This document shows, piece after piece, positions 135-5,320 of a stretch of 5,320 nucleotides of DNA. How positions within the stretch are numbered: position 1 is the stretch's first letter; each line of letters opens with the position of its first letter. A program made the position numbers and the translations under genes. The notes beneath the pieces were generated by a model, which saw only the letters and a program-made list of their open reading frames with translations, made no database searches and was not told the DNA's origin. Source of the DNA: Candidatus Methanophaga sp. GoMg3.2. GTDB taxonomy: Archaea > Halobacteriota > Syntropharchaeia > Alkanophagales > Methanospirareceae. The stretch is taken from NCBI GenBank assembly GCA_013180565.1, contig QBUN01000259.1:1-5320 (forward strand), given 5' to 3'.

Positions 135-548
135 TTATGGCATAAAATGTGGCTCATCCCTAATAGCGTTCATACATTCATCCAGAGTTGAGTCCGGATA
201 AATCTCCCACCACTTCCCTGTGTGCCTCATATACGACAAATTAAACCGGTTTTTACTGATAAATTCCATCCGGGCAAACCCTGTCTCAAAAAAAGGTTCT
301 ATGGCATTTGGGCCAGGGGAATGATATTTTGCATAAAAATAGAAATAGTTGCGATAACACTTCGTAAAAATATCCACGATGTAATTAAAGCGCTTTTCTT
401 TTGGATTAGGCACAATGAATTTAGGTTTCAAAACGGATTCAATAAGTTCATCACCTACTTTCTTTACTTCAATTTTCATTGACTCTGGAACTTTGGGTTT
501 GGGCGCTTTAGGTGGATTGTAGAACCAATACATTTTATTTTTTGCCAT
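135..548 (-). CDS. Conserved-looking hypothetical protein, 137 aa, family not recognised
   Basis: Read from ATG 548-546 to TAA 137-135. A TTG twelve bases further upstream (560) is in frame, but the ATG is preferred because AGGT sits just before it and nothing resembling a Shine-Dalgarno precedes the TTG. The product is soluble, basic and aromatic-rich, with no signal peptide or membrane segment. A Pro/Lys-rich start (NPPKAPKPKVPES, residues 11-23) is followed by a helix (about 24-41), then FNYIVDIFTKCYRNYFYFYAK (residues 54-74, possibly strands with many Tyr/Phe) and FARMEFISKNRFNLSYMRHTGKW (91-113), ending in a short helix TLDECMNAIRDEP. The composition looks like a genuine protein, and the complementary-strand frame is a shadow. 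It is the immediate upstream neighbour of polX on the same strand, but no functional link is claimed. Confidence 0.75.
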   Translation of the reverse strand: MAKNKMYWFYNPPKAPKPKVPESMKIEVKKVGDELIESVLKPKFIVPNPKEKRFNYIVDIFTKCYRNYFYFYAKYHSPGPNAIEPFFETGFARMEFISKNRFNLSYMRHTGKWWEIYPDSTLDECMNAIRDEPHFMP

Positions 549-581
549 TTTACCTATCAATTTAATTTAATTTGTTTTTTG

Positions 582-640: not shown

Positions 641-722
641 ACATATCTTTTCAATAATTTTTACCCGAGTACTTGGGCTAAGGATGAAAAATATTTGATG
701 CTGCTAAAAATGACAACTTGAA

Positions 723-809
723 GAATTTAGCGTTTTGCGTGTTCGCTAAGTCTACCAGCTGGCGGATTTGGGGTGATCGATAGCGAACCGCATACCCGCT
801 GTTATATGC
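723..809 (-). repeat. attC-like imperfect hairpin (candidate integron cassette recombination site)
   Basis: Read on the minus strand, the element has the layout of an integron attC site, 38 bp after the stop of the DUF2441-like gene. Its order is GCATATAAC (809-801, R''-like, ending in AAC), AGCG (800-797), a short unpaired spacer, TGCG (792-789) and GTTCGCTA (788-781). A 32-nt apical part follows, then TAGCGAAC (748-741), one unpaired base at 740, CGCA (739-736), a short spacer and CGCTAAATT (732-724). The 8-bp and 4-bp arms pair exactly, with an extrahelical base between them. The R'-like end reads GCTAAAT where GTTRRRY is expected, so the core GTT carries a C and the site may be inactive. 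The apical part contains the palindrome CCAGCTGG (755-762). It could instead be a plain transcription-terminator hairpin. Confidence 0.5.
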
Positions 810-846
810 AGTGTGCTCGAATTGTTTAGTATTATCGTTCATGAAA

Positions 847-1359
847 TCAATCTATCCTACGAACTACCCTCACAGGAGGCACCATTATATATTCCCAAAC
901 TGGATTATTTCCACCCGAGATTCCGTTCCAATATTGGTGTGCCCAATAAGACAATACCAACAACGTACCTTGCAAAGTCAATAGGCGCATATCCGCTTTA
1001 AATGCAACATCTGATTCAACTTCAAAGATTAAACCATCGGATGTTCCATATTCCTTTCCGAAGCTCTCTGCTTGCTTAATGTTTTCAAATGCAAAAACTG
1101 ATTGAAAACGTGAAGGACGAGAAGGGAAATAACTTCTACGTACATACTCAAAAAGGAGTTCGATAATTTCATTTACGCCCGCAGCAGGCGCATTGTTACT
1201 AAGAATATAGCGCTCACCATGACTTGTAACTCCATCAGGAAACAAAGAATCAACGTGAATTTGTACTTCTTGGGGTTCAACATCTCTATATTTAACTAGG
1301 TTAATTATTTGGCCTTCTTCTAATGTTCCACTACGATCAACTGTAAAGCAACGCAACAT
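847..1359 (-). CDS. DUF2441-like protein, 170 aa; probable cassette cargo
   Basis: The ATG at 1359-1357 is chosen over an in-frame ATG at 1383 because GAGGA (1370-1366) lies six bases upstream of it, and the TATA-like box at 1391-1398 would leave the longer start outside the transcript. The product is soluble, without signal peptide or membrane helix. Visible blocks are RCFTVDRSGTLEEGQIINL (residues 3-21), FPDGVTSHGERYIL (40-53), LLFEYVRRSYFPSRPSRFQS (68-87) followed by VFAFENIKQAESFGKEYG, then VAFKADMRLL (118-127) and NPVWEYIMVPPVRVVRRI (152-169). This order (an 'EGQIINL' opening, an HGE block, 'FPSRPSRFQS..FAF' and a closing 'WEY..PPVRVV') matches my memory of the DUF2441 family, whose function is not established. 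The arrangement faintly recalls ADP-ribosyltransferase-type folds, which is speculation. The gene stands alone between cassette-like signals, so horizontal acquisition is likely. Confidence 0.72.
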   Translation of the reverse strand: MLRCFTVDRSGTLEEGQIINLVKYRDVEPQEVQIHVDSLFPDGVTSHGERYILSNNAPAAGVNEIIELLFEYVRRSYFPSRPSRFQSVFAFENIKQAESFGKEYGTSDGLIFEVESDVAFKADMRLLTLQGTLLVLSYWAHQYWNGISGGNNPVWEYIMVPPVRVVRRID

Positions 1360-1365
1360 TGTAAT

Positions 1366-1398
1366 TCCTCTAATTGTTTGCATTTAATAAAAATATAT
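1366..1398 (-). promoter_or_regulatory. TATA-like box and Shine-Dalgarno site of the DUF2441-like gene
   Basis: On the minus strand ATATATTT (1398-1391) lies about 25 bp before the Shine-Dalgarno core GAGGA (1370-1366), which is six bases from ATG 1359. An archaeal TATA box there would start transcription close to 1370, giving a very short leader. This supports the 170-residue start over the 178-residue one. Confidence 0.45.
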
Positions 1399-1413
1399 GC
1401 ACATTGCGGATAA
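1398..1413 (-). repeat. GTTATCC half-site at the upstream border of the cassette-like unit
   Basis: The minus strand reads GTTATCCGCAATGTGC from 1413 to 1398. GTTATCC fits the integron core consensus GTTRRRY except at one position, as many natural sites do. It matches 13 of 16 bases of GTTATATGCAGTGTGC on the plus strand at 801-816, so the two copies form an inverted repeat around the DUF2441-like gene. That arrangement is expected when one is the R' end of the preceding site and the other the complement of the R'' end of this cassette's attC. No paired arm is seen beyond 1413, so this is a half-site, not a second complete attC. Confidence 0.45.
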
Positions 1414-1540
1414 CGTCAGGTTGTGTAAAAAACTCTTTTTTCTACTAGAACACTTCTTAGAACGCTTTATTTAACTGCCCCTGTCTTTAGGCATCTTTTA
1501 CCGGCTTTTTATATTAGGGTCCTGTGCTAGCCTGAAAAAT

Positions 1541-1884
1541 TTTGTAAGGTGCCCCCATCATCAAGTCAAAAAGTACCCCATTTTAATCACCGCCCCCTAT
1601 GTTCATTCTTCTATAATCTCTCCAAATCCCATTAAAATCGTTGGTTTTGGTTTTTCTTCTCTCTCCGCTCCGCCCCTAGTTGACCATTTTGCGACCACCT
1701 TCCGGCCTGTTAATACGTGCGCAGTTTTTGCTGTTATACTATTGTATAATTCGCATTGGATCGGTGCCATGAGCTCTGGTGGATCATCAGGCCTTGGAGC
1801 TCATAAATTGACCTTATTGTATATTAATAAGTTCAATGCAATAGCGAACAAAAAATCAGCCGGTTGTAGGCGGTTATGCGGGTG
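1541..1884 (-). mobile_element. Possible terminal remnant of an IS21-family insertion sequence
   Basis: On the minus strand two copies of an ATGGGG-headed motif occur 23 bp apart: ATGGGGTACTTTTTGACTTG (1581-1562) and ATGGGGGCACCTTAC (1558-1544). Tandem 'GGGGTAC-TTTTTGA' type motifs after the last gene are typical of IS21-family ends. Upstream on the same strand (about 1790-1588) one frame reads as basic, protein-like sequence, for example NSKNCARINRPEGGRKMVN and NDFNGIWRDYRRMNIGGGD, interrupted by stop codons. It may be a decayed gene tail, but I cannot assign it to IstA or IstB. No second end or target duplication is seen, so the right-hand boundary is arbitrary. Confidence 0.33.
1769..1804. 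repeat. Perfect 8-bp inverted repeat ATGAGCTC/GAGCTCAT
   Basis: ATGAGCTC (1769-1776) and GAGCTCAT (1797-1804) are exact reverse complements separated by 20 bases, so either strand can form a hairpin. No T-run follows on either strand, so a terminator role is not supported. It may belong to the neighbouring insertion-sequence remnant. Confidence 0.55.
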
Positions 1885-1889
1885 CTGAT
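1849..1889 (-). terminator. Probable terminator of the nosD-like gene
   Basis: On the minus strand ATCAGC (1889-1884), overlapping the stop codon, pairs with GCTGAT (1860-1855) and is followed at once by a run of six T (1855-1850). The stem is short with a 23-nt loop, but archaeal termination depends mainly on the T-run, which is clear here. Confidence 0.45.
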
Positions 1890-3583
1890 CAGGGAAGAAT
1901 ATAGTTCTCAAAAGGCTTCATTAATGGATAAGCATCACTTTCATCTTTTTCAGAATCTATGCTGTAATGTGTGTCTCCAATTCCATCACCTTCTGCATCT
2001 GTTACTTCGTAATCATCCCAGTAGTTGCCTAAGTAGCTTTTGTACGTTGTTCCATCATAAGTATAGGTTATTTCCAATGGCGAGTTCCAGATGTTAGTTG
2101 ATTTAGAATATGTAGAAGAATGAGCGTTGTCTGTGTTGTTTATAAAATTGTTGAGATAGATTAAGTTATCAGATCCAGAGGAATAGATGCCTTCAGGGTA
2201 GTTGTTGCTGACAGTGTTGCCTGTGATAGTGTTATTGTTGCTGGAAGAGCCGAGGCAGATGCCGCCATAGTTGTTGCTAACATTGTTGCCTGTAATTGTG
2301 TTTTTATTGCTGGAAAAGAAGAGGACGATGCCGCCCCAGTTGTTGTTGCTGACATTGTTGCTCATAATGTTGTTGTTACAGGAAACGACGAGGTGGATGC
2401 CGCGATAGTTGTTGCAGACGGAATTACCCGTAATGGTGTTATTGCTGGAATACCCTAGGAAGATGCCATCATCATAATAGTTGTTGCTGCTGACATTGTT
2501 ACCTGTGATGGTGTTATTGTGGGAATAGTTGAGGAAGATCCTGCTGACAGTATTTTTTGAGATTATACAATTTTCCGTCTCCAAAACTTCTACACCGACA
2601 CTTGTATTGGATAAATCCAGATTTTCCACTGTGATATTATTGCAATTTACAAGTATAACCTGCCCAGCATCATTAACCCTATAATCCGAGGCATCTTCAA
2701 GATAAACAAGCGGCTTGCCATTTACCCTGTTGTCTTCCACGGTATTGTGATAAGAATCCATAACAAAAAGACTATCATTTACAAATGTATTACTTGTAAG
2801 GGTGTTGTTGTTGCTGGAATCGGTGAGGCCGATGCCGACGCGGTTGCTACTAACATTGTTGCCTGTTATGGTATTATTGCTGGAACAGAAGACTGCGATG
2901 CCCCATTCGTTGCTGCGGACATTGTTGCCTGCAACGTTGTTGTTGCTGGAAAAGAATAAGTCGATGCCGTCATCGTTGTTGCTTACATTGTTGCCTGTTA
3001 TGTTGTTGTTACAGGATTCCTTGAGATAGATGCCAACGAAGTTGTTACGGGCAGTGTTGCTAGTAATGGTGTTGCTACAGGAAGAGGAGAGGTAGATGCC
3101 TTTTCTGTTGTTGCTGGCATTGTTGCCTGTAATTGTGTTGTTGTTGCTGGAAAAGGAGAGGCTGATGCCACTCCCGCTGTTGTTGCTGACATTGTTGCTT
3201 CTAATGTTATTGTTGTTTGAGTTTACGTTGATCCCCGCATCATACTGTGACCATCTTCCTGAGTTTGCTACAGTAAATCCCTCTAGCGTAATTCCATCCG
3301 CAGTTAATGTAATCGCGCTATCACTGCCGTTTGCATCCACAATTGGATGACCAATCCCTCTTAGTGTAACCGATTTATCCACAACCACATTCTCGTAGTA
3401 AATACCGGAATAAACTAAAATTGTATCACCCTCCTTAGCATTATTTATCGCATCTTGTATCCCTGTGAAATCTGCCCCGCCGCTGCCATCCACAGACCAG
3501 TTCGTTGCCGATGCAGTTCCTACCAGACTAAGAACCAAAATCGTAACGCTTACAATCAGTATACTATATCTTTTATCCATCAT
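1889..3583 (-). CDS. Secreted NosD-like right-handed beta-helix (PbH1) repeat protein, 564 aa
   Basis: The product has a signal peptide (residues 1-26: short basic start, hydrophobic core, cleavage after TASA), so it is exported. Residues 28-110 form the usual NosD/pectin-lyase-like cap (WSVDGSGGADFTGIQDAINN, then GDTILVYSGIYYENVVVDK). Two blocks of about 22-residue PbH1 repeats of the type NNTITGNNVSNNxxGIxL cover residues about 118-270 and 351-476. They flank a non-repeat segment with NGKPLVYLEDASDYRVNDAGQ (288-308). The tail has the family's NIWNSPLEITYTYDG and YLGNYWDDYEVTDAEGDGIGD motifs, the last an acidic, possibly Ca-binding loop, and YPLMKP. The family builds parallel beta-helices; NosD itself serves nitrous oxide reductase, but archaeal paralogues like this are generally surface proteins of unknown ligand. 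Many N-x-S/T sequons suggest glycosylation. No C-terminal membrane anchor is present. ATG 3583 or 3580 could start; GGGTGAT lies four bases before the former. Confidence 0.93.
   Translation of the reverse strand: MMDKRYSILIVSVTILVLSLVGTASATNWSVDGSGGADFTGIQDAINNAKEGDTILVYSGIYYENVVVDKSVTLRGIGHPIVDANGSDSAITLTADGITLEGFTVANSGRWSQYDAGINVNSNNNNIRSNNVSNNSGSGISLSFSSNNNTITGNNASNNRKGIYLSSSCSNTITSNTARNNFVGIYLKESCNNNITGNNVSNNDDGIDLFFSSNNNVAGNNVRSNEWGIAVFCSSNNTITGNNVSSNRVGIGLTDSSNNNTLTSNTFVNDSLFVMDSYHNTVEDNRVNGKPLVYLEDASDYRVNDAGQVILVNCNNITVENLDLSNTSVGVEVLETENCIISKNTVSRIFLNYSHNNTITGNNVSSNNYYDDGIFLGYSSNNTITGNSVCNNYRGIHLVVSCNNNIMSNNVSNNNWGGIVLFFSSNKNTITGNNVSNNYGGICLGSSSNNNTITGNTVSNNYPEGIYSSGSDNLIYLNNFINNTDNAHSSTYSKSTNIWNSPLEITYTYDGTTYKSYLGNYWDDYEVTDAEGDGIGDTHYSIDSEKDESDAYPLMKPFENYILP
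2156..2533 (-). repeat. Distal block of about 66-bp tandem repeats within the nosD-like gene
   Basis: This codes for residues about 351-476. On the minus strand units carrying AAC-AAT-rich tracts around AACAATACCATCACAGGTAA-like cores recur at about 66-69 bp, each encoding one PbH1 coil. The DNA copies remain similar enough to allow slippage or recombination with the other block. Confidence 0.7.
2774..3232 (-). repeat. Proximal block of about 66-bp tandem repeats within the nosD-like gene
   Basis: This codes for residues about 118-270, about seven PbH1 coils, with the same Asn-Asn-Thr-Ile-Thr-Gly-Asn core as the distal block. Copies differ mostly in the segment encoding the hydrophobic GIxL strand and the adjoining SS/SC residues, so the coil scaffold is held while one face varies. 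Confidence 0.7.
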
Positions 3584-3702: not shown

Positions 3703-3752
3703 GACCTCTCCGCAAAATCAAAAAGGGAAGGTCTTGGCGAAAGCATTGGACT

Positions 3753-3890
3753 TTACGAAGGCGTATAATCCGCTTCCCACTCACGACAATAGAACTCAGA
3801 AGGCGGAATATACATAACCTCTGCATATCCTTCTCTTACCATCTTCTCATTTAGATTTGATTCAATATCTGTTATCGCTCTCGTTATCGT
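3753..3890 (-). pseudogene. C-terminal remnant of a staphylococcal-nuclease-like (thermonuclease family) protein
   Basis: One minus-strand frame is open from 3890 down to TAA 3755-3753 and has no usable start. It reads NLNEKMVREGYAEVMYIPPS, then EFYCREWEADYTPS. The series 'LNEKMVREGYAxVMYIPPSEF' is the C-terminal end of staphylococcal nuclease homologues, where the last helix and its following loop close the OB-fold enzyme. The N-terminal catalytic part (Asp/Arg/Glu residues around the Ca site) is absent, so this is debris. It lies just after, and in a different frame from, the lamin-tail remnant at 3862-4083; the two overlap by 29 bp. Archaeal proteins combining a thermonuclease and a lamin-tail domain are known, so both may come from one ancestral secreted nuclease that was frameshifted and truncated, although here the lamin-tail piece comes first. 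Confidence 0.6.
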
Positions 3891-4083
3891 TTACAAGGGG
3901 TGTTCTATCTACTACTTCGCCAACTACATCTCTCAGGATTATTGATTCGTTGTTATTGTCTATCCAGCGATAAGAAGGGCTATGAATATAATAGGCTCCG
4001 GGGTAAAGGGTAGTGCATTCGGCCATCCATAGACTTACTGTTGAGCCATTAGTGGTTTCTAAAGTTAATTGTCTTTTCAGCAA
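3862..4083 (-). pseudogene. Lamin-tail-domain remnant
   Basis: A minus-strand frame of 73 codons ends in TGA at 3864-3862. It can begin only at a TTG (4083) with no Shine-Dalgarno, and the frame is closed by a TAA about seven codons further upstream. The sequence has the pattern of an archaeal lamin-tail (Ig-like LTD) domain: TLETTNGSTVSLWMAE as the edge strands, TTLYPGAYYIHSPSYRWIDN as the conserved 'L.PG.Y..I.....RW.N' core, then ESIILRDVVGEVVDRTPLVN as the 'D.i.L.D..G.vVD...' strands. LTDs are extracellular binding modules, often attached to nucleases. The usual continuation after VDRTP.VND is missing and the frame ends. It is therefore probably a fragment, the partner of the nuclease tail at 3753-3890. 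A short real gene cannot be fully excluded. Confidence 0.5.
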
Positions 4084-4141
4084 CTGTAATAAAATCGATT
4101 ACTTCCCGTATCAAATACACATGCATTAATATACCTGGATG

Positions 4142-4152
4142 ACTATATATAA
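4142..4152 (+). promoter_or_regulatory. TATA box of the antitoxin-vapC operon; probable leaderless start
   Basis: ACTATATATAA (4142-4152) is a good archaeal TATA box centred about 21 bp before the antitoxin ATG at 4168, so transcription should begin at or next to the ATG. No Shine-Dalgarno precedes the ATG, which agrees with a leaderless mRNA. Confidence 0.55.
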
Positions 4153-4167
4153 GTTGACTGAAACAAA

Positions 4168-4308
4168 ATGAAAGTTGAGCAATTATTAAAAAGTGGAAAC
4201 GCCACTCTTTTACTCGAATGGATTGAGGAATGCATGCCTGACGAAGAATATGCCTCATTACTTGATGCGGCAGAGGAAAACACGCGTAAAAACCTAAAAT
4301 TGAGGTGA
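4168..4308 (+). CDS. Putative VapC-associated antitoxin, 46 aa, family not recognised
   Basis: The frame runs from ATG 4168 to TGA 4306-4308, directly ahead of the vapC remnant (TTG 4314). The stop lies inside the Shine-Dalgarno of vapC, an arrangement typical of translationally coupled antitoxin-toxin pairs. The small protein is acidic in its middle, with sequence KVEQLLKSGNATLLLEWIEE followed by CMPDEEYASLLDAAEENTRK. It looks entirely helical: one helix over residues 2-22, a break at Met-Pro (23-24), and a second helix over 25-42. It shows no ribbon-helix-helix, AbrB or Phd pattern of the usual VapB types and no basic DNA-binding start. The identification rests on position and size. It is intact although its toxin is broken. 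It could be a truncated or new antitoxin type, perhaps one that wraps the toxin without binding DNA. Confidence 0.6.
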   Translation: MKVEQLLKSGNATLLLEWIEECMPDEEYASLLDAAEENTRKNLKLR

Positions 4309-4309
4309 T
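4302..4309 (+). promoter_or_regulatory. Strong Shine-Dalgarno fixing the TTG start of vapC
   Basis: GAGGTGAT (4302-4309) is an exact match to the archaeal anti-Shine-Dalgarno and stands four bases before TTG 4314. It overlaps the last codons and stop of the antitoxin gene and decides for the unusual TTG start, since no ATG is available before the conserved LDTSFIADL motif. Confidence 0.75.
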
Positions 4310-4313
4310 TTCT

Positions 4314-4711
4314 TTGGTTTGTCTCGACACGTCTTTCATAGCCGACCTAAATCGCAAAGATATTGGTGCAATCGAAAAACTAAAGGAGTTATCGAAAATC
4401 GAGAAAAATTGGTTACGACTGTTATAAATGTCGCGGAATTATATAAAGGTGCATATGGTCATCATAACGCTGAAAGAAAGTTAAAAGAGGTTGACGAGCT
4501 GATTCTGATACTTTTTGTGTGAGAGATGAATGTAAGAGCATCTAAAAACTATGGCTATTATTATCACTATCTGAAGAAGAGCGGAAAAATGATCGAAGAT
4601 AGGGATATCCTTATTGCCGCCATAGCCCTTTCTTTTGGCGAGAATAGGATCGTTACGAGGAATATTAAGCACTTTGAAAGGATAGAGGAGATCGAAGTGG
4701 TGAGCTACTAG
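4314..4711 (+). pseudogene. vapC: VapC-type PIN-domain ribonuclease toxin, broken by a frameshift and a stop
   Basis: From TTG 4314 the frame gives VCLDTSFIADLNRKD, with the first PIN acidic residue (Asp5), and continues to KLKELSKIEK. The frame is then lost at a run of five A (4404-4408) and would end at TAA 4425. One extra A there restores IEKKLVTTVINVAELYKGAY, with the second acidic residue Glu42 in VAELYKG. The restored frame meets TGA at 4520-4522, then continues in register to KMIEDRDILIAAIALSFGEN (third acidic, Asp98), IVTRNIKHFERI and TAG 4711. The reconstructed length of 132 residues is normal for VapC, a Mg-dependent endoribonuclease that blocks translation. Both lesions fall inside the catalytic domain, so as sequenced no active toxin is made. 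The A-run lesion could be a read error, but the TGA would still interrupt the protein. Confidence 0.85.
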
Positions 4712-4857: not shown

Positions 4858-5061
4858 ATTTGCAACCTGGCAAACTGTTTCTTACTCTTACAAGGTTTAC
4901 TATACCCTCAAATTTTTTTCTAGTATGGCTTTAGATCTCTCGATTATTTCTATGAGGCGCCTCCAATTTTGGTTATAGAAGCATCTGGCGGCTTCCTCCC
5001 AATCTTCAGTAGACATCTTACTTCGGATGAACTTTCATTTTTTAGTGATCCTCTTTAATCT
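4712..5061. other. 350-bp interval without a recognised gene
   Basis: Between the end of vapC and the HEPN gene there is only the pair of short minus-strand frames listed separately. Just after the HEPN stop the minus strand has AGAGGATCAC followed by an ATG (5039-5037) that opens only six codons, which looks like a surviving translation start whose gene has been lost or frameshifted. No RNA gene or repeat array is seen. Confidence 0.5.
4900..5016 (-). CDS. Very short hypothetical reading frame, 38 aa, possibly a remnant
   Basis: ATG 5016-5014 to TAG 4902-4900. The product STEDWEEAARCFYNQNW followed by RRLIEIIERSKAILEKNLRV is predicted to be helical and charged with aromatic spacing, unlike random sequence. 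The frame extends a few codons upstream (FIRSK) before a stop, so it may be the C-terminal end of a larger decayed gene. No clear Shine-Dalgarno precedes the ATG. It lies between the HEPN gene and the 49-residue frame on the same strand, but no function can be given. Confidence 0.3.
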   Translation of the reverse strand: MSTEDWEEAARCFYNQNWRRLIEIIERSKAILEKNLRV

Positions 5062-5320
5062 TTAGATGACTGTAATTTTATTTAAAACGAATTCTTTTAT
5101 TTTCTTTGCTATATCGAAGGATTCTTTTGCCTCTTCTAACGTTGGCTCAAACTCGTCCTCGGGATATCGAACTTCAACAGCATAATCGGTAAGTTTATCT
5201 GCTTTTTCTTTCAATACAGAAATTTCGCTATCTCTACTTTCACATTTTGTAATTAATTCACCAATTTCATGAGTCTTGGTAAAAGAAATACCAAGAAAAA
5301 CTAGATATGCTTTTAAATAC
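5062..5320 (-). CDS. HEPN-domain protein, C-terminal part (runs off right edge)
   Basis: A minus-strand frame is open from the window edge to TAA 5064-5062, about 86 codons, with the start beyond the window. It reads YLKAYLVFLGISFTKTHEIG, then ELITKC, and later DKLTDYAVEVRYPEDEFEPT and EEAKESFDIAKKIKEFVLNK. This is the C-terminal two thirds of a HEPN domain: the 'KAyLvf.Gi.f.KTH.i.eL' helix pair, the 'LT.YAVEVRYP' turn and the last helix ending in 'A..i..FV'. HEPN proteins of this size usually pair with a MNT-type nucleotidyltransferase as toxin-antitoxin or as an RNA/NTP-acting module; such a partner would lie upstream, outside the window. No R-x4-6-H ribonuclease motif is visible in this part. 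It faces the vapC locus from the opposite strand. Confidence 0.85.
   Translation of the reverse strand, partial: YLKAYLVFLGISFTKTHEIGELITKCESRDSEISVLKEKADKLTDYAVEVRYPEDEFEPTLEEAKESFDIAKKIKEFVLNKITVI

Follow-up and report, generated by a model that had tools for sequence, protein, structure and literature searches.

A worn attC-type site in an ANME-1-class archaeon and what looks like an integron system native to its group

The window analysed here, a whole stretch of 5,320 nucleotides, carries at 724-815 a hairpin that is very probably the attC site of a DUF2441-like gene cassette, surviving in degraded form in the chromosome of a methane-oxidising archaeon of the ANME-1 class. It looks like part of a gene-collecting system, an integron, native to this archaeal group and previously unnoticed. 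In the best reading, the site is a remnant of an integron lineage that resides in these archaea, and not evidence of a recent jump from bacteria. The element is best filed as an integron attC at family level, not as a canonical member, in an archaeal variant of the integron system.

The hairpin and its cassette

The hairpin has every pairing that the initial annotation assigned to it (Table 1). The single-strand fold proposed there gives a real hairpin, but an ordinary one: among 200 shuffled sequences for each strand, 16 (plus) and 6 (minus) are as stable. Folding alone not being exceptional, the significance of the hairpin comes from comparison.

Table 1 Features of the window around the attC-type site (strand of the feature; dot, no strand)
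Feature	Position	Strand	Basis or remark
DUF3024 gene	135..560 (ATG at 548)	-	Pfam; next gene after the attC-like site
Block absent from two syntenic relatives	660..1567	.	G162:C131 and G160:C97 (L090, L091); ~57 other nt there
Degenerate attC-type site of the DUF2441 cassette	724..815	-	extent of family-model match
R' core GCTAAAT	725..731	-	family mostly GTT; GCT in 1/48 family sites
Outer pair AGCG / CGCT	729-732 / 797-800		placed as in the initial annotation
Inner pair TGCG / CGCA	736-739 / 789-792		extra T740
L stem 3' arm (AGCGAACACGC)	737..747	-	7/11 Watson-Crick pairs left
GTTCGCTA / TAGCGAAC	741-748 / 781-788		around 32 nt (749-780)
L stem 5' arm (GCGGGTATGCG)	789..799	-	family alignment
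R''-like ATATAAC	801-807	-	
Extended R'' (GCACACTGCATATAAC), cassette 3' end	801..816	-	13/16 complementary to 1399-1414
Cassette gene, 178 aa, DUF2441-like	847..1383	-	PF10386 22.9 bits, cut-off 25
Cassette 5' end (GTTATCCGCAATGTGC)	1399..1414	-	core G at 1414; homology start and end complementarity

In the family of sites described below, the stem consists of an 11-bp L stem (in the window, 789-799 with 737-747) and of R''/R'. Judged from the family alignment, the GTTCGCTA hairpin and its extra base are peculiar to the window copy and not family features. T740, read initially as an extrahelical base, is present but not diagnostic: the L arms of 48 family sites contain no gap and no extrahelical base, and T740 lies on the arm opposite to the extrahelical base of the bacterial set (alignment A3). 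As to the cores, ATATAAC ends in AAC and GCTAAAT does not begin with GTT. From its sequence the window site looks decayed; with a GCT core and seven of eleven L pairs, this copy is probably inactive or weak.

The site begins 31 nt (model match, 815-724) or 39 nt (ATATAAC) after the stop of the gene at 1383-847, a single short gene directly before it on the same strand, and the window holds one recognisable cassette. This gene has 63 relatives, 62 of them listed with PF10386; no paper listed in a search of the open-licence literature contains the name 'DUF2441'. A pattern-based scan of one genome per species gives 16 loci with a DUF2441-like gene. Amino-acid identity is 79% in Methanothrix, 76% in ANME-1 GoMg1, where the gene is present and the 5' arm of the site seems by eye to be deleted, and 49% in a Thermoplasmatota archaeon. 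It is 41-45% at the loci of Zobellella, Shewanella and Chlorobiaceae, and the protein of a Chloroflexi MAG reaches 51%. Among viral contigs, 14 stretches fit the gene pattern and none is a relative.

At the Zobellella, Shewanella and Chlorobiaceae loci the coding match is followed, 5-8 nt on, by the start of a canonical attC, and archaeal integrons with canonical attCs have been published (PMC9668308). Both would suit an ordinary bacterial integron cassette that recently entered the archaeon, a reading that we consider very unlikely. The nearest named relatives of the gene are archaeal and the bacterial loci stay at or below 45%, the Chloroflexi MAG apart. Covariance model R1, our stand-in for the canonical attC, was built from 21 bacterial attCs beside intI genes, from the family of Zobellella. 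It does find attCs in L004, L006 and L008, but it returns nothing at the site at E<=10, so that the search with a canonical model proposed in the initial annotation came out negative. R1 also gives an intact-looking archaeal family member only 6.5 bits, and matches in 0 of 50 Methanothrix-order genomes at E<=0.1. The site family itself is widespread: 54 of the 57 genomes in the class of the window match it. The initial annotation would take a cassette here as a sign of transfer across domains, and this part of it is not supported. Nevertheless, the distant relatives of the gene before canonical attCs in bacteria imply that cassette genes crossed domains at some time.

The resident archaeal cassette has recognisable ends. 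The window and Methanothrix have a unit in common, at 782-1418, with 87% DNA identity; the Methanothrix homology starts at the core TGACGTTAT and runs on, weaker, through the hairpin. The match between the two ends of the window cassette (Table 1) is equalled by 57 of 100000 shuffles. In the Methanothrix DUF2441 cassette the ends are complementary at 15 of 16 positions (0/100000 shuffles as good), and in the next Methanothrix gene, with other end letters, at 14 of 16 (11/100000). Eight cassettes, taken from the window, Methanothrix and G057, have own ends that fit at 11-15 of 16 positions, and 2 of 40320 orderings score as high, the true ordering included. Imperfect pairs in these eight give no evidence of bottom-strand bias beyond one conserved position (5 versus 3). 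Two syntenic relatives, G160 and G162, have the DUF3024 gene and the far flank in the same arrangement as the window and lack the intervening block (Table 1); this is a presence/absence difference only, a clean empty site not being found in either.

A unit with 16-nt complementary ends that is absent from two relatives could also be a small transposon or MITE-like unit with cargo, bounded by terminal inverted repeats. We hold this to be highly improbable: the end letters vary between cassettes yet match within each, and the homology passes the unit end into the hairpin. Moreover, the units stand in head-to-tail arrays in which one site is common to neighbours, with an attI-like element at the array heads.

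The archaeal context proposed for the hairpin is borne out by the surrounding DNA, which matches 51 of the 58 genomes in the class of G002 ('ANME-1 cluster archaeon GoMg1', Ca. Methanophagales in the NCBI taxonomy). Examples are G161 (99% identical over 4939-5320), G162 (95% over 86-659) and G159 (91% over 3737-4379), and many of the remaining matches fall within a repetitive NosD-like gene. This gene, at 1889-3583 on the minus strand, has 66-72-nt repeats and encodes a large, surface-like parallel beta-helix protein of the NosD type; similar genes occur in many class genomes. At 4168-4711 on the plus strand, a small gene is followed by one that by eye is PIN/VapC-like and split over two frames; Pfam gives no support for the pieces, and the region matches other class genomes in pieces, at 84-96%. 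On the minus strand at 1-53, ~80 nt beyond the DUF3024 gene, starts a gene that runs off the contig and whose first residues seem to resemble DNA polymerase X.

The DUF3024 gene is a cassette gene in G183 (L095), with family sites on both sides. In the window no family site follows it, and we rejected it there as an intact cassette: its ends are only 9/16 complementary, and 16957 of 20000 shuffles do as well. A DUF3024 search of 50 Methanothrix-order genomes gives 0 matches. In the window, a tRNA search finds none, Rfam gives three matches at E<=5, none of them at the hairpin site, and a motif search and the ORF list reveal neither an attI-like element nor an integrase.

A family of sites in the window's class

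Two further covariance models place the window site in an archaeal family. R2, built from five Methanothrix-order sites with the window and any DUF2441 site left out, ranks window 724-815 first (17.9 bits, E 8.3e-4; next 8.1 bits). R3, built from ten Methanothrix-order sites, the Methanothrix DUF2441 site included and the window left out, ranks it first as well (24.3 bits, E 1.5e-4; next 9.1 bits); the E-values of the models are rough because their calibration was short. At E<=1, R3 matches in all class genomes except G185, G138 and G148, with 1-40 matches per genome (among 70 candidates scored in each) and best E-values down to 1e-17; the class genomes may contain binning errors. As R3 was trained without sites of the window's class, the class signal is independent of training. 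In the Methanothrix order it matches in 4 of 50 genomes, of which G053 and G019 match no better than E 0.1-1. An early search, with a pattern taken from the Methanothrix 3' arms and up to 3 mismatches, found sites in two of these 50. With one site as query, the family has no match in plasmids. In viral contigs we found one exact 18-mer, within another hairpin, and judged it chance.

To describe the family we used 20 array loci, picked for strong or clustered matches, which give 48 sites at E<=0.01 and 28 neighbouring same-strand site pairs. As aligned, the archaeal attC has an R stem of 13-16 nt, the R' half of which comes from the next cassette, an 11-bp L stem, and two spacers, 1 and 5 nt long. 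In all 48 sites R'' ends in AAC, and in 40 of the 48 R' begins with GTT; the 5' spacer is A in 45 sites and the 3' spacer 5 nt long in 46. The L stem is 93.6% paired and 9 of its 11 pairs are changed on both sides, in an alignment that was fitted to the model; the structure-free MAFFT alignment A6 agrees (90% paired, double changes in 8/11 pairs). There are 30 different L-stem 5' arms among the 48 sites, and so many arm sequences with one structure suggest that the folded strand is recognised. One R-stem pair is C.A in 41/48 sites, that is, G.T on the bottom strand; together with the asymmetry of the 1/5-nt spacers, this conserved pair may give the attC its polarity.

R'' pairs better with the R' of the previous site than with its own in 23 of the 28 pairs and worse in 5 (means of 9.7 versus 7.9 of 13; 0/20000 permutations as good). 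This is cassette logic; a plain hairpin would show the opposite. In 24 of the 28 intervals the longest ORF lies on the strand of the site, and in the other four on the opposite strand; the median distance from stop to site is 27 nt. A plain transcription terminator, or some other hairpin after a gene with no role in recombination, would suit a position close behind a stop codon and an ordinary folding energy, but it is the least probable of the readings considered, against the preference of R'' for the previous R', the conserved AAC and GTT ends, a homology unit that starts at the core and arrays that carry different genes. The attC of a single-gene cassette in an archaeon, as initially suggested, is thus supported by the cassette ends, the homologous arrays and the family covariance model.

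Integrase, attI-like element and cargo

An integrase and further attC sites had been named as things to look for. Beyond its one site the window has none, but relatives have arrays, some with an integrase beside them (L177, L184). TIGR02249-like matches at E<=1e-30 occur on ten contigs from nine of the 58 class genomes, and 0/58 pass the TIGR02249 cut-off. Nine of the ten fetched recombinases form one clade. The three integrases that were scanned all exceed the cut-off of NF040815 ('site-specific tyrosine recombinase/integron integrase') and miss that of TIGR02249 (237, 231 and 226 versus 265 bits). For the L177 integrase, the best PDB sequence match is IntI4 2a3v (E 1.2e-45), in two pieces; the stretch between them is much shorter in the archaeal protein, and residues 171-239 of 2a3v have little counterpart there. 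The IntI-specific insertion near patch III is not present in nine of nine clade integrases, whose motif spacing is 59 aa in 9/9 versus 100-101 in IntI, the latter taken from the 6 of 13 IntIs where the motif was found.

A tree of 36 rows resolves the archaeal clade (18 rows, half of which are the nine database relatives) and the set of 13 IntIs as one group each (100/99); the two, together with L182, unite at 97/98. The other recombinases in this tree are a small, long-branched sample. Relatives of the integrase number at least 7999 candidates, and those listed include Thermoplasmatota, Methanotrichaceae, Syntropharchaeales and the bacterium Thermodesulforhabdus. One bacterial protein, P0241 of Thermodesulforhabdus norvegica, is 68% identical to the archaeal integrase. 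The AlphaFold model of the L177 integrase (pLDDT 76.6, pTM 0.60) is weak in its C-terminal part. Foldseek ranks XerA 5hxy and IntI 2a3v first, with TM-scores (query) of 0.36-0.42, and at such low values structure comparison adds little.

Directly after the integrase stop lies a conserved GAGGGATGTATATACG...GGATATAC...GAGTTA, the attI-like element. It is found by motif in 6 of the 9 clade contigs, with a degenerate core in L177, and by eye, incomplete, in L183; L179 and L181, the remaining clade contigs, stop 0-1 nt past the integrase reading frame. In L184 the integrase and this element are followed by six family sites from 8475, and in L177 by three from 8744, so that all three components stand together in these two relatives. 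L176 has one family site 3.6 kb on from the integrase, and L185 has none in the 923 nt left after it. The element also heads the arrays of G057:C8 and of Methanothrix G001:C112, the latter contig having no TIGR02249-type match, and it is further present on G057:C42 and at seven loci from the window's class. Downstream of the integrase, five of nine contigs break off within 153 nt and six of ten within 191. Such ends would be expected where variable arrays interrupt assembly; we take this as suggestive only. The contig of L178 (G135:C3, 1-80) ends exactly at the GAGTTA core of the element, as if the first cassettes varied in the population.

In G057:C8, five cassettes follow an amino-acid-kinase gene, with a family site after each. 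Their cargo comprises a DpnII/MboI-type restriction enzyme, an unknown protein, a metallo-beta-lactamase-fold protein, a nucleotidyltransferase/HepT pair and a RelB/ParE pair. Of 21 cassette ORFs of at least 100 aa, 20 were scanned: nine have no Pfam match, and among the rest Pfam identifies, for instance, two STAND NTPases, R.HinP1I, PemK, a reverse transcriptase, a trypsin-like domain, GNAT, 8xMP and DUF5615. Behind an attI-like element, L171 (G002:C1) carries a reverse transcriptase gene at 7025-8569 on the minus strand, flanked on either side by a family site. One cassette of Methanothrix, whose 151-aa gene looks PIN-like by eye, recurs between two sites of G162 (81% over 793 nt), with a partial copy in G178; the relative of this gene in L156 has no Pfam match. 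From this recurrence, it seems that cassettes are passed from one archaeal order to another, provided that no contig is misbinned.

These layouts suggest a mechanism in which the recombinase, a tyrosine enzyme of the NCBIfam XerA/integron-integrase type that lacks the IntI-specific insertion, would recognise the folded bottom strand, cut the site at G|TT, and join cassettes either to other attCs or to the attI-like element immediately downstream of the integrase gene. From the sequences we infer this single-strand recognition, the pairing of the integrase with the family sites, catalysis and recombination itself. It is likely that the ANME-1 class has its own near-universal integron lineage, with a XerA/IntI-like integrase devoid of the IntI-specific domain, an attI made up of two or three palindromic boxes downstream of the integrase gene, attCs without extrahelical bases, and partly defence-like cassettes exchanged with Methanothrix.

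If this is true, integrons would regularly contribute to the evolution of archaeal genomes and would serve as a reservoir of defence-type genes. The need for extrahelical bases and for the IntI-specific domain in integron recombination would become testable, as would the question whether the XerA-like group lies near the origin of IntI. With such an integrase and such an L stem, standard tools may overlook these systems, and detection would need new models.

Relation to known systems

Integrons are viewed mainly as bacterial elements. Using standard attC models and IntI-domain integrases, Ghaly et al. 2022 report them in 75 of 6718 archaeal genomes (PMC9668308); the main text of that paper contains neither 'ANME' nor 'Syntroph', and in the open-licence literature we found no report of integrons in ANME-1 or Syntropharchaeia. 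Our observations resemble theirs in that arrays occur in archaeal MAGs, many without an integrase, and that cassettes carry toxin-antitoxin and restriction genes (PMC9668308). The sites and the integrase described here differ in departing from the standard models; the two genome sets may overlap.

With bacterial attCs and cassettes, as represented by R1, the archaeal family has in common an R'' ending in AAC, an R' mostly beginning with GTT, a stem with L arms and a variable tip, as well as one small gene per unit, same-strand arrays and an R' common to neighbours. Extrahelical bases in the folded stem are a feature of attCs (PMC5371416). Unlike these, the archaeal sites have an L stem free of extra bases, fixed spacers and longer complementary ends, and R1 does not find them.

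The integrase resembles two known groups. It is like IntI (TIGR02249, PDB 2a3v) in its best PDB sequence match and in the joining of the clades in our small tree, and differs from it in its score below the TIGR02249 cut-off, its shorter motif spacing and its separate clade. With archaeal XerA (NF040815, PDB 5hxy and 4a8e) it has in common the NF040815 scores of the three scanned proteins and the lack of an IntI-type insertion. It differs from XerA in having ~65 aa more at the N-terminus and in adjoining, in L177 and L184, an attI-like element and cassette sites.
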